64,000 nt of DNA, taken from contig NZ_JBBMXV010000003.1 in NCBI RefSeq assembly GCF_037996645.1, positions 186,001-250,000 of the forward strand. The letters are read 5' to 3'. Both the position numbers and the translations under genes were made by a program. Of this stretch, positions 9,548-14,296 are shown piece after piece. Source of the stretch: Halalkalicoccus tibetensis (lineage in GTDB: Archaea > Halobacteriota > Halobacteria > Halobacteriales > Halalkalicoccaceae). The first letter of the stretch is position 1. Each line of letters starts with the position of its first letter. Below the pieces are notes generated by a model. That model made no database searches. It was not told where the DNA came from and saw only the letters and a list, made by a program, of their open reading frames with translations.

Positions 9548-10801
9548 TTACGGGTCGACCTCGACGACGGCGACGCCGGCGGGGATCGCGGGGAGCTCGC
9601 CCTCGGTCCCCGCGGGAACGGCGATGACGGCCGCGTCGGCGTCCGAGCCACGTGCACGTTCGGCCGCCCAGCCGGGGTCCTCGCCGGGCACCACGAGCAG
9701 GTCGAGCGGCCACGCCCCCACGCGGAACGCGCCCTCCTCCTCGCGAACGTCGCCGTACTCCGCCTCTAAGCGCTCGCGGAGCCCTCCCTCGAAGCCTCCC
9801 GTCGGGTCGTCGGGCCCGCCCGGCGCGCCGGGTTCGTCGCCCTCGTCACCGTCTTCGTCCCCTCCGGTACCCCCGTCGCCGTCGATCACCGACAGCTCGC
9901 CGTGTTCGGCCTCGACGGCCTCGATCGGGATCCCGATCGTGGCGTCGGGGCTGCCCGCGAACAGCAGGTTCGTCGCGCGGAACTCCCCGTCGTCGACCCC
10001 GATCAGACTGCCCGAGTCGCCGCCGTCGCCCATCGAGGTGAACAGGTCCACGCCCTCGAAGACGGCGACGCCGCCGCCGAACCCGCCGACCTCGATGCGG
10101 GCGTCCCGCCCGCGGAGCTCGCCGGTCGTGACGCCCGTGGTCCGGCCGCTCTTGGTGTAGGTCTCGTCGCTCTCCATGTCGGGCTCCGAGAAGCCGGCAA
10201 GCGGGCCGACCCCGAGGACCTCGTCGTCGACGTCGTCGGGGTCGACCGCGATCAGCGCCGAGTCGGTCGTGTTCGGTTCCGCTGAACTGATCTCGCTCCA
10301 CTCGCGCAGCCGGCCGATCTCGTCGCCCTCCGTTCCCCCGTCCTCGGGGCCCGGCTGGAGGACGGGATCGCCCTCGGACGCCTGCGGCTCGGGCGCGGCG
10401 ACGTGGGCGTTGCTCAACACAACGGGCTCGCCGTCCTCGGCCTCCAGGGCGGTCGAGCCCATCGTCCCGGCGCTCAGGGAGGGATGGGCCATCGAGACGC
10501 CGGCCGGCGCGGGCCGGACCCGCTCGGTCCGTTCCGCCTCCTGGGCCGGCTCGACCGAGAGCGCGGTGACGTCGCCGACCTCCTGGACGTCGGTCGCGAG
10601 CTCCTCGCCGTCGCAGTCGACCGTCTCGGGGACGATCTCCTCGTCGGCGAGCTGGGTCTCGGCGACCTTCCGGTCGACGAAGACGACGACGCAGGTCTCG
10701 TCGGTCTTCTCGCCGTCGACGCGCCGCTTGCCGACGGCGGTGCCCACGACGTGGGGCAGCGATTCGAGCCGGTCGCGAACCGACTGTGGTATGTCGACCA
10801 T
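9548..10801 (-). CDS. Trypsin-fold serine protease without export signal
   Basis: A 417-aa protein with a chymotrypsin-like triad: His133 (LSNAHVAA), Asp180 (NTTDSALIAV) and Ser263 (GDGGDSGSLIG). TKSGRTTGVTTGEL (216-229) is the conserved strand before the serine. An N-terminal domain (1-100) of mixed alpha/beta character precedes the protease, and a Gly/Asp/Glu linker (about 317-345) leads to a C-terminal domain of about 75 residues. No Sec or Tat signal is present, so it should act in the cytoplasm. Substrate and partners are unknown. Confidence 0.8.
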   Translation of the reverse strand: MVDIPQSVRDRLESLPHVVGTAVGKRRVDGEKTDETCVVVFVDRKVAETQLADEEIVPETVDCDGEELATDVQEVGDVTALSVEPAQEAERTERVRPAPAGVSMAHPSLSAGTMGSTALEAEDGEPVVLSNAHVAAPEPQASEGDPVLQPGPEDGGTEGDEIGRLREWSEISSAEPNTTDSALIAVDPDDVDDEVLGVGPLAGFSEPDMESDETYTKSGRTTGVTTGELRGRDARIEVGGFGGGVAVFEGVDLFTSMGDGGDSGSLIGVDDGEFRATNLLFAGSPDATIGIPIEAVEAEHGELSVIDGDGGTGGDEDGDEGDEPGAPGGPDDPTGGFEGGLRERLEAEYGDVREEEGAFRVGAWPLDLLVVPGEDPGWAAERARGSDADAAVIAVPAGTEGELPAIPAGVAVVEVDP

Positions 10802-10854
10802 ACACCCGATGTGGGCGTCCGGCCCTTAGTTCACCGCGATAAAAAGTTGATATT

Positions 10855-12612
10855 TCAGTCGATGTGAACGGTGTTGCCGTCGAAGTCCGTGAACGTCCAG
10901 CCGTCGAAGTCGAGCTCGTCGTGGAAGCGCATCGCGGCGTCCTCCAGGTACTGGATCGCGAGCTCCTGGCCCAGCGCCATTCCGGCGTCGTGGTCCGAGC
11001 GGAAGTGGACGCCCGCGAACTGCCGGCCGCCGTAGTTGACGTTCGACGCGAGCTTGTTCAGCTCGCTGCGGATCGTCAGCTCCTCGCCCTCGTAGGGCTC
11101 GAGCTCCTCGCCGTCCGCGGTCGGCTGGACGGGGTCCTCGATGACGTAGTCCTCGTTGAAGACGGCCTTCAGCACGGTCGAACACGCCGCCGAGACCGTC
11201 GAGTGCCCGCCGGGGTAGGCGGGGTGCAGCGGCGCGCCCTCGGGATACGCCTGCGTGAGGACGTGCGAGCCGTTCTCCTCGTAGATCCGGTCGAAGACCT
11301 CGTACTCCTCGAACTTCTCGACCGGTACCGGGTGGTCGGCGTCGATGTCGTCGTTGACGGTCGCCTCGACGAGCCCGCCGTACTCCTCGGGGCGCGCGCG
11401 CCGGTGAACCAGCCACTTCTGGACCCACGAGGCGACGTGGGCGGGCTGGCCGATGCCGCTGACGAGATCCATGATGCCCTCGCGACCGAAGTCGAGGAAG
11501 CCGACCTGGGTGTCGCTGTCGGCGTACGGGTGGTAGTCGCCGAAGAGCTCCTCGGGGTCGCTGACGACGCCGTCGACGGGCCGGCCCATCAGCACCATCA
11601 CGGCGATCATGTACGGCTGGAACACCATGTCCCGCTCGACGCAGGCCGCCAGATCGCGCCCCGAGCTCATGTACTTGCGGTGGTCGGTGAGCGAGTCGGC
11701 GATCTCGCCGTCGTGGTGGCCCGACTCGTCCTCGGGGCCCGGCGTCTGGCCGCGCATGTTCGCGAGCCACTCGTCGTAGTCGGTGACGTAGTCGCGTTCC
11801 TTCAGCGTGATGATGTCCTGGCTGATCTCGTGGACGCTCAGGGGGGCGTCCTTCAGCAGGAACTGCGAGAGATACGGCCCCTTCTCGACGCCGTCGAGAT
11901 CGGCATGAAAGAGGTATTTCGGGTCGGTCGGCCCGTTGTAGCCGGGGGTGTCCTCGAGCTCGTCGGCGGCCGCCTGGATCAGCTCGCTGTCCTCGTACTC
12001 CCGGAACGGGACGTCACGGGCGAGCGACTGCCAGTAGAGCTCGATCATCTCGCCAACCTGCTGGTCGGAGTCGAAGGCCGGCGGCGCGTCCTTGATGGTG
12101 AGCGAGTGCGGGTCGGGCCCCATCAGCTCGACGCTGTAGGCGCCCTGGGGCTCGATGAACTCGCGGTGGCCGCCCTGCGGGATGGTCTCGAAGAGCTCCG
12201 GGTCGCCGGTATCGAGGGCCTCGGTCAAGTGGTCGTAGGCCCCCCGGTCGGGGGTGCCGTCGTCGGCGTGGGGCAGGCCCTTCGTGAACATCGCGATCTT
12301 CGAGGGGTAGGCGTCCTCGTCGTCGGCCTTCTCCCGCTCCTCCATCGAGGGCATCCCCCGCTCCTGGAGCTTCTCGACGAGCTCCATGCGCTTCTCGTAG
12401 GCCGTCTCCAGTCGGTCGGTCCCGTCCATCATCCCGTCGCTTCCCCCACCGTCGCTCGTGGCGGCGGCCCCCGTCGAGCCGGCCCCGATCCCGAAGATGC
12501 TCGCGAGCCCGGCCGCCCCGATCCCGCCAAGCACCCGCCTCCGCTTCGATGAGATATCCGCTTTCGCACCGTCCTTCGTCTCCTCTTCGGTTCGATCCTG
12601 TTCTGCGCTCAT
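10855..12612 (-). CDS. Vanadium-dependent haloperoxidase, Tat-exported
   Basis: A 585-aa enzyme of the vanadium haloperoxidase/PAP2 superfamily that oxidises halides with H2O2. All three vanadate-binding motifs are present: Lys399...Arg407-Pro (KWLVHRRARPE), the PGGHST turn with the acid-base His470, and Arg530...His536...Asp540 (GGRQFAGVHFRSDHD), where His536 would bind vanadate. The N-terminus has SSKRRRVLGGIGAAGLA, a twin-arginine signal followed by a hydrophobic stretch. The ATG at 12612 is chosen because a TATA-like box lies 29-34 nt upstream. It is not known which halide is used. Confidence 0.9.
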   Translation of the reverse strand: MSAEQDRTEEETKDGAKADISSKRRRVLGGIGAAGLASIFGIGAGSTGAAATSDGGGSDGMMDGTDRLETAYEKRMELVEKLQERGMPSMEEREKADDEDAYPSKIAMFTKGLPHADDGTPDRGAYDHLTEALDTGDPELFETIPQGGHREFIEPQGAYSVELMGPDPHSLTIKDAPPAFDSDQQVGEMIELYWQSLARDVPFREYEDSELIQAAADELEDTPGYNGPTDPKYLFHADLDGVEKGPYLSQFLLKDAPLSVHEISQDIITLKERDYVTDYDEWLANMRGQTPGPEDESGHHDGEIADSLTDHRKYMSSGRDLAACVERDMVFQPYMIAVMVLMGRPVDGVVSDPEELFGDYHPYADSDTQVGFLDFGREGIMDLVSGIGQPAHVASWVQKWLVHRRARPEEYGGLVEATVNDDIDADHPVPVEKFEEYEVFDRIYEENGSHVLTQAYPEGAPLHPAYPGGHSTVSAACSTVLKAVFNEDYVIEDPVQPTADGEELEPYEGEELTIRSELNKLASNVNYGGRQFAGVHFRSDHDAGMALGQELAIQYLEDAAMRFHDELDFDGWTFTDFDGNTVHID

Positions 12613-12646
12613 GGTCGGTCTAACCGACCTTACGATGGGCTTAAAA
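12613..12646 (-). promoter_or_regulatory. Haloperoxidase promoter with perfect 7-bp palindrome abutting the ATG
   Basis: TTTTAA (12641-12646, minus strand) lies 29-34 nt upstream of the ATG. GGTCGGT-tag-ACCGACC (12613-12629) is a perfect inverted repeat with a 3-nt loop that ends at the start codon. It would form either an operator over the transcription start or a hairpin at the 5' end of the mRNA. Confidence 0.55.
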
Positions 12647-12979
12647 CGTTGTGAAAAATAATTCCGGGATAGGTAATATATGAAATATTCTTCTTTCGGA
12701 ACTGCTATGGAATACGTTCGGTTCGTGGAACCTTCGGATCGGTGAACTGTTCGGGGACGGTCCTGGACGAACCGAACCCTACCCGCTAACGGATGTGGGA
12801 CCTGCAACGCGCCGTTCCTTCCGTTCGCCTCTCGACCTTCAAGATACGAGATAATACATGCGAATCAGAGTTATCGGTATTCCTAGTAGTACGACTACTC
12901 TGCCCGACGTGTTCCCTCCGAACGGCGGCGTGAATGCCGTGTGCCTACACGGCGTTGCGAATCTTGCCGTTATTGCTGG

Positions 12980-12985
12980 TTATAA
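12980..12985 (+). promoter_or_regulatory. TATA box of metY
   Basis: TTATAA lies 28-33 nt before the ATG at 13013. This is the normal distance for a leaderless haloarchaeal transcript and favours 13013 over the in-frame ATG at 12992. Confidence 0.6.
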
Positions 12986-13012
12986 CTATCTATGGATATA
13001 TGCACCACATAC

Positions 13013-14296
13013 ATGAATCGATGGGGCCCCACGACGCGGAGCGTCCACGCCGGCGGGCACGCGGACCCGGCGACCGGCGCGCGCGCACCGCCCATATATC
13101 AGACCACCTCCTACGCGTTCGAGAGCGCCGACCACGCCGCGGAGCTCTACGCCCTCTCCGCGGAGGGCGACATCTACTCGCGGATGAGCAACCCGACGAC
13201 CCGGGAGCTGGAGGAGCGCCTCGCCTCGCTGGAGGGCGGGACGGGTGCGGTCGCCACTTCTTCGGGAATGGCCGCCCTCGACGCCGCGACCTTCCTGCTT
13301 GCCGCGCCGGGCGACACGGTCGTCTCCTCCTCCGCGATCTACGGCGGCACGACGGCCTACCTCAACCACGTCGCCGGCCGCCGCGGGATCGACGCGCGGT
13401 TCGTCGATCCCCTCGACTACGACGGGTACGAGGAAGCGATCGACGACGACACCGCCTACGTCCACTGCGAGACCATCGGCAACCCGTCGCTGGTGACGCC
13501 GGACATCGAGCGGGTGGGGGAGATCGCTCACGCGAACGACGTTCCGCTGTTCGTCGACAACACCTTCGCCACCCCGGCGCTGTGTCGCCCCCTCGAACGT
13601 GGCGCGGACCTGGTCTGGGAGTCGACCACGAAGTGGCTCCACGGGGCGGGCACCACCGTCGGGGGCGCGCTGATCGACGGCGGCAGCTTCGACTGGGAGG
13701 CGGGCGACTACGAGGAGCTCTCGGGGGAGAACCCCGCCTACGACGGGATCGACTTCAGCCGGGACTTCCCCGAGGCCCCCTTCGCCGCCGCCGCGCGCTT
13801 CCGCTCGCTGCGGGCGCTCGGCGCCCAGCAGGCGCCCTTCGACGCCTGGCAGACCCTCCAGGGCCTGGAGTCGTTCCCCCTCCGGATGGAACGCCACTGC
13901 GAGAACGCACGGATCGTCGCCGACTACCTCGCGGACCACGAGGACGTCGCCTGGGTCACCTACCCGGGACTCGAGGACCACGAGACCCACGAGAACGCCC
14001 GCGAGTACCTGGAGGGAGGCTTCGGCGGAATGATCGCCTTCGGTCTGGAGAACGGTTATGCAGGGGGTAAACGCGTCTGTGAGGCGGTCGATCTGATCAG
14101 CTTCGTCGCCAACATCGGCGATGCCAAGTCGCTGATCATCCATCCCGCCTCGACCACCCACGGCCAGCTCACGCCCGAGGAGCGCGCCGCGAGCGGCGTC
14201 ACCGAGGACCTCGTGCGCCTCTCGGTCGGAATCGAGGACCCCGAAGATATCCTCGCCGATCTCGAGGGAGCGATCGAGGCGGCGGTCGCACCATGA
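13013..14296 (+). CDS. metY: O-acetylhomoserine sulfhydrylase (aminocarboxypropyltransferase)
   Basis: A 427-aa PLP enzyme of the Cys/Met metabolism family that makes homocysteine from O-acetylhomoserine and sulfide. Visible features are the [10 protein letters not shown] opening, the YSRMSNPTT substrate/PLP contact segment, [13 protein letters not shown], and the Schiff-base lysine near residue 207 in [10 protein letters not shown]. It overlaps metX by four bases (ATGA), so the two are translationally coupled and supply consecutive steps of methionine synthesis. The start is supported by the TATA spacing. Confidence 0.95.

Follow-up and report, generated by a model that had tools for sequence, protein, structure and literature searches.

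A probable exported vanadium haloperoxidase of the bromoperoxidase type in a haloarchaeon, with glycine at the vanadate serine position

Vanadium bromoperoxidases (VBPOs) and PAP2 phosphatases belong to one superfamily, and haloarchaeal proteins annotated as vanadium haloperoxidase are probably already present in databases. Among the open-access papers listed by literature searches, and judging by those listings, no biochemically characterised archaeal vanadium haloperoxidase was found. In the Curvularia enzyme, Lys353, Arg360, Ser402, His404 and Arg490 are described as hydrogen-bonding vanadate, and His496 as its ligand (excerpt of PMC10278073). Chlorination is influenced by residues three positions before the lysine (i-3): Ascophyllum has Trp, CpVHPO has Phe and Trp, and a variant of the Acaryochloris enzyme has Ser. 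In algal enzymes, chlorination is associated with Trp or Phe at i-3; halogen specificity, however, is described there as not traceable to the direct contact of one residue (excerpt of PMC11871015). Hypersaline lakes are named as natural sources of volatile organohalogens, with (micro)organisms as major contributors (excerpt of PMC7284496).

Here we analyse a gene within 64,000 nucleotides of the Halalkalicoccus tibetensis genome, the whole of which is referred to as the window. Its likely product is a haloperoxidase of the algal/cyanobacterial bromoperoxidase type that depends on vanadate, is exported by the Tat pathway and is most likely active. The protein is an additional member of an already known enzyme family; it is of interest for its archaeal host, for the repeated replacement of the vanadate serine and for its bearing on which organisms produce organohalogens in brines.

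The gene, its family and its export signal

The gene is an intact open reading frame on the minus strand, running from an ATG at position 12612 down to 10855 and encoding 585 aa followed by a stop codon; it is supported by the frame and its translation, the phmmer match described below and homologues within the class. The open frame reaches upstream to a TTG at 12807, but the ATG was preferred as the start: the DNA immediately above it is A+T-rich, and translation from it places the Tat signal close to the N-terminus. The GC3 of 0.945 compares with 0.90-0.94 for five genes nearby. When taken from residue 53, a boundary of our choosing, the mature protein has a pI of 4.3 and an Asp+Glu content of 21% (13% in the 1qi9 stretch), an acidic make-up that fits work in brine. 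The sequence-only reading had proposed a haloarchaeal host. Both this acidity and the neighbouring metZ-like gene agree with it: the best seven listed plasmid matches of the latter are haloarchaeal (64-68% identity), and the next listed is from a bacterium (51%). Comparison with a partial orthologue (L065, from genome G391 of the same genus) yields a dN of 0.19 and a dS of 1.03 (149 codons, NG86, with dS high), indicating constraint on the protein.

Homology to characterised algal/cyanobacterial-type VBPOs extends over most of the protein's length, both by phmmer and by profile search. With phmmer, the Ascophyllum VBPO (PDB 1qi9) is matched at E = 2.1e-64 over residues 106-575, and nine other VBPO sequences are matched at 1.4e-45 to 3.2e-38, which supports the vanadium haloperoxidase identity first proposed from the sequence alone. 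A profile of 12 relatives, searched against the PDB, retrieves ten VBPO sequences, engineered variants among them, at E = 5.6e-120 to 7.4e-103. The protein has no Pfam or NCBIfam match at 0.001, and an AlphaFold model built from three sequences has a mean pLDDT of 31, too low for use.

A twin-arginine signal region spans residues 21-51 (12460..12552, minus strand; SSKRRRVLGGIGAAGLASIFGIGAGSTGAAA) and was recognised from the sequence, a scan and hydropathy; the signal already claimed for the protein is therefore present. KRRRVLGG is followed by a hydrophobic stretch, giving the arrangement of an RR-x-hydrophobic motif and then a hydrophobic segment seen in Tat substrates (RRRVLGGIGAAGLASIFG). 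Since the region contains no cysteine, this Tat-type signal (KRRRVLGGIGAAGLASIFG) lacks a lipobox. The partial orthologue L065 has a similar twin-arginine motif. Of the 39 haloarchaeal rows examined, the scan assigns Tat-like signals to 18. This is an undercount: some of the 39 are fragments that lack the N-terminus, and the scan missed at least L007 and L010, in both of which RR motifs are visible. The haloperoxidase is probably secreted.

Locus, spread and role

The haloperoxidase gene is divergent from a metZ-like O-acetylhomoserine sulfhydrylase gene (12992..14296, plus strand; TIGR01326 above cut-off), which lies outside the haloperoxidase system and served as the fixed point for a synteny comparison. 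Downstream, after a gap of 53 bp, lies a protease-like gene (9548..10801, minus strand; NAL1_N; phrog_20754 'protease'), which is possibly co-transcribed with the haloperoxidase gene, and then an MFS gene. The comparison covered six other genomes of the genus, and in five of these the haloperoxidase gene is absent beside metZ: metZ is followed directly by the protease-like gene and then the MFS gene in G201 and G134, by the MFS gene in G216 and G060, and in G195 by genes found further along in the window. The sixth genome (G391, 71% complete) carries an orthologue beside metZ, with 66-71% identity over ~150 aa before it is cut by the contig end, as well as a second haloperoxidase copy (L064) with about 50% identity. 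The slot beside metZ (9548-12992) varies in the genus, holding nothing extra, the protease gene, the haloperoxidase and protease genes, or a haloperoxidase gene after which the contig ends. Gain in an ancestor of two genomes and loss in others both fit this pattern.

An operon search by ORF clustering drew on the window region, on 20 stretches surrounding relatives, on two loci of Pyxidicoccus and on L064 and L065. By this rough method there was no conserved neighbour, the largest non-haloperoxidase cluster coming from 4 loci and the others from <=3; ORFs were selected with a crude GC3 criterion, which overlooked the haloperoxidase itself at L046, L055 and L065, so that absence here is weak evidence. 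An aldehyde ferredoxin oxidoreductase-like gene, recognised by clustering and by Pfam on the L048 copy, lies just upstream of the haloperoxidase gene in three genomes of two genera (L048:4265-6193, L049:4978-6909 and L051:4781-6712), two of which carry tandem haloperoxidase copies.

Homologues are patchy in the class and present in several haloarchaeal genera. Of 391 genomes sampled from the class, 21 (about 5%, the window's own among them) match at E <= 1e-15; at E <= 1e-3 the number is 34, several of these matching through the signal region only. By family, the counts at 1e-15 are 14/170, 3/125 and 12/146 genomes (the archaeal sets overlap). A draw across the whole phylum gave matches in 3 of 392 genomes; these include the window's own, and all three belong to its order. 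Of 146 genomes from the phylum to which Pyxidicoccus belongs, 12 match, Pyxidicoccus among them. The idea of a mobile element was set aside: no phage record matches the haloperoxidase, and the five plasmid records that do are all bacterial. In the cyanobacterium Pseudanabaena PCC 7367, a haloperoxidase gene on a plasmid typed as conjugative (L041) is split by an IS630-family insertion. Six haloperoxidase ORFs lie on six contigs of Pyxidicoccus fallax (G394). The H. tibetensis genome itself encodes a second, distant haloperoxidase-like protein (L002; G000:C5, ~69912-70241) that matches Pfam VCPO_2nd and carries an RR motif close to the N-terminus; its motif 2 reads PSGL, with leucine at the position of the usual catalytic histidine.

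A quick tree, with a single alga as its root and several long branches, was made from 63 rows (38 haloarchaeal and 24 bacterial). The search had given 72 unique ORFs, and 10 fragments or frame-shifted ORFs were left out (L022, L023, L065, two L085 pieces, L080, L086, L095, L097 and L116). All 38 haloarchaeal rows fall on one side of a branch with an SH-aLRT of 90 (not starred), and a single entry of the enzyme into haloarchaea is possible. The row nearest to the window protein is L064 (support 99).

With regard to role, it is quite possible that the enzyme detoxifies H2O2 at the cell surface with bromide as the catalyst, instead of halogenating targets, a function that would be compatible with its identity as a VBPO. 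A protective role against reactive oxygen species is ascribed to bromoperoxidases (excerpt of PMC6299022), and the six window neighbours scanned include no peroxide source, partner or halogenation-like pathway; however, the patchy spread and variable locus fit an accessory trait better than a basic peroxide defence.

The active site and the vanadate serine

Active-site residues were read from the alignment to 1qi9 (34% identity over 447 columns). Motif 1 (11389..11427, minus strand) contains W396, K399, R407 and P408, aligned to W338, K341, R349 and P350 with the same K-x7-RP spacing. Motif 2 (11203..11226, minus strand) reads HPAYPGGH against HPSYPSGH in 1qi9; H463 and H470 are kept, and the serine position is Gly468. 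Motif 3 (RQFAGVH; 11005..11025, minus strand) contains R530 and the presumed vanadate ligand H536, aligned to R480 and H486. The full set in the window protein is W396, K399, R407, P408, H463, G468, G469, H470, R530 and H536. Eight of the nine named positions are the same as in 1qi9 (K341, R349, P350, H411, G417, H418, R480 and H486), and Trp338 is kept as well. In the alignment, therefore, the vanadate lysine (K399), the two arginines (R407 and R530), the axial histidine (H536) and the acid-base histidine (H470) are all present, as is the second motif-2 histidine, H411 of 1qi9 (H463). The exception is S416, which we take to be Ser402 of the Curvularia enzyme: 1qi9 has PSGH and the window protein PGGH. 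The sequence-only reading had considered all vanadate and catalytic motifs to be intact; this holds for Lys399, Arg407, His463, His470, Arg530 and His536 and fails for the vanadate serine. Identity at nine of the ten positions (the nine named and W338), against a background of 34%, gives a binomial p = 4e-4, a figure that is only indicative because the positions were chosen by the analyst; the E-values are the real evidence.

The serine position varies across the family. In the 63 tree rows it is Ser in 29, Ala in 25 and Gly in 9, and at least 6 changes between Ser and non-Ser are needed on the tree. Ala (20) or Gly (4) is present in 24 of the 38 haloarchaeal rows, the other 14 having Ser; the 24 bacterial rows have 14 Ser, 5 Ala and 5 Gly. 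The nearest full-length relative, L064, retains the serine. Among the ORFs left out of the tree, motif 2 has Ala in L086 and L095, Gly in one L085 piece, and Ser in L097 and L116; in the remainder it is out of frame or absent. Bacterial rows are more variable at the other positions, with Asp for H411 in four, H418 absent in two and Ala aligned at H486 in one. In a clade from the phylum of Pyxidicoccus (L102, L104, L105 and L106), motif 2 reads DPxHPGGH or DPxHPAGH, so that both the serine and the usual first histidine are altered.

If the pocket works as its residues suggest, the folded protein would leave the cell through the Tat pathway and could bind vanadate from the brine via His536, with Lys399, Arg407, Arg530 and His470 holding it in place. 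H2O2 would convert the bound vanadate to peroxo-vanadate, which would then be attacked by bromide and perhaps, where it is molar, by chloride. HOBr or HOCl would diffuse off; peroxide would be consumed in the process, and organic matter or cells in the vicinity could be halogenated or damaged.

That the VBPO fold has been kept while vanadate-dependent peroxidase activity was lost, or that the same pocket performs other chemistry, is improbable in our judgement. Such an outcome would accord with the change of Ser to Gly at a vanadate contact, and the superfamily does include a non-halogenating member, Streptomyces NapH3, which takes part in an alpha-hydroxyketone rearrangement (excerpt of PMC8407142). 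However, the serine is the only one of the nine named positions that varies among the haloarchaeal rows: K341, R349, P350, H411, G417 and H418 are kept in 38 of 38, and R480 and H486 in all 36 rows with letters there. In addition, the crystallised Acaryochloris bromoperoxidase (5lpc) has Ala at the serine position (HPSYGAGH), and its wild type brominates (excerpt of PMC11871015). Loss of the serine therefore need not abolish activity, and the PSGH serine is treated here as usual for VBPOs and not as defining them. No characterised enzyme with Gly at this position was found, and S402A does not occur in the one paper listed by a literature search on mutation of the vanadate serine. The serine loss probably changes the affinity for vanadate or the rate without abolishing activity.

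It is very unlikely that the protein is instead an exported PAP2-superfamily acid phosphatase, using the common vanadate/phosphate pocket, and phosphatase-only activity looks unlikely from the family matches. PAP2 (PF01569) is the best Pfam match of the protein (0.02, below the PAP2 cut-off), and all 12 members of alignment A2, the window protein included, match it at E <= 1 (lowest 5.5e-8), but this match does not alone separate the two enzyme types, since both are in one superfamily. The 12-relative profile, by contrast, matches VBPOs over most of the length at E-values no higher than 7.4e-103 and the best PAP2 phosphatase at 3.1 over a short stretch (some unrelated proteins lie between 0.26 and 1.7), and K-x7-RP is as in 1qi9, phosphatases having K-x6-RP.

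As a haloperoxidase, the protein has Trp396 three residues before Lys399, as in the chlorinating Ascophyllum enzyme, which makes chloride oxidation at molar salt plausible; the i-3 residue is Trp in 32 and Phe in 6 of the 38 haloarchaeal rows. A more speculative and rather doubtful extension is that these proteins represent a separate haloarchaeal clade of exported haloperoxidases, most of which lack the vanadate serine and have Trp as the i-3 residue; they would be tuned to oxidise molar chloride, release HOCl/HOBr into brines as a weapon or signal, and constitute an unrecognised biological source of volatile organohalogens in salt lakes. A putatively secreted haloperoxidase in several haloarchaeal genera offers a concrete gene for the organohalogen question in hypersaline lakes, and the family provides a natural set of Ser, Ala and Gly pockets in salt-adapted proteins for probing the vanadate contact.

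Comparison with known vanadium haloperoxidases

The fungal VCPO, the bacterial VIPO-type enzyme 4cit and NapH1 share the superfamily pocket, but their matches are short and C-terminal, and the 12-relative profile reaches them only weakly (4cit at 1.9e-5, NapH1 at 9e-4 and the Curvularia VCPO at 0.012; NapH3 is at 0.084). The Pyxidicoccus fallax homologues L033 and L034 are matched over most of the length with 36-38% identity; they keep the serine (ASGH/GSGH) and have a C-terminal extension, and the scan finds no Tat signal in them. The Acaryochloris marina enzyme (5lpc), reached by the same profile, is likewise prokaryotic with a non-Ser residue at the serine position (Ala in 5lpc), but its i-3 residue is Arg, whereas that of the window protein is Trp; its wild type acts mainly as a brominating enzyme, with 53% bromination versus 8% chlorination of monochlorodimedone (excerpt of PMC11871015). 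The best PDB match of the single sequence is Ascophyllum nodosum vanadium bromoperoxidase 1 (1qi9), which has in common with it K-x7-RP, the two motif-2 histidines, the motif-3 arginine and ligand histidine, and Trp at i-3. The haloarchaeal protein differs from 1qi9 in having Gly for Ser416, a Tat signal and a more acidic composition, at an identity of 34% over the 447 aligned columns.
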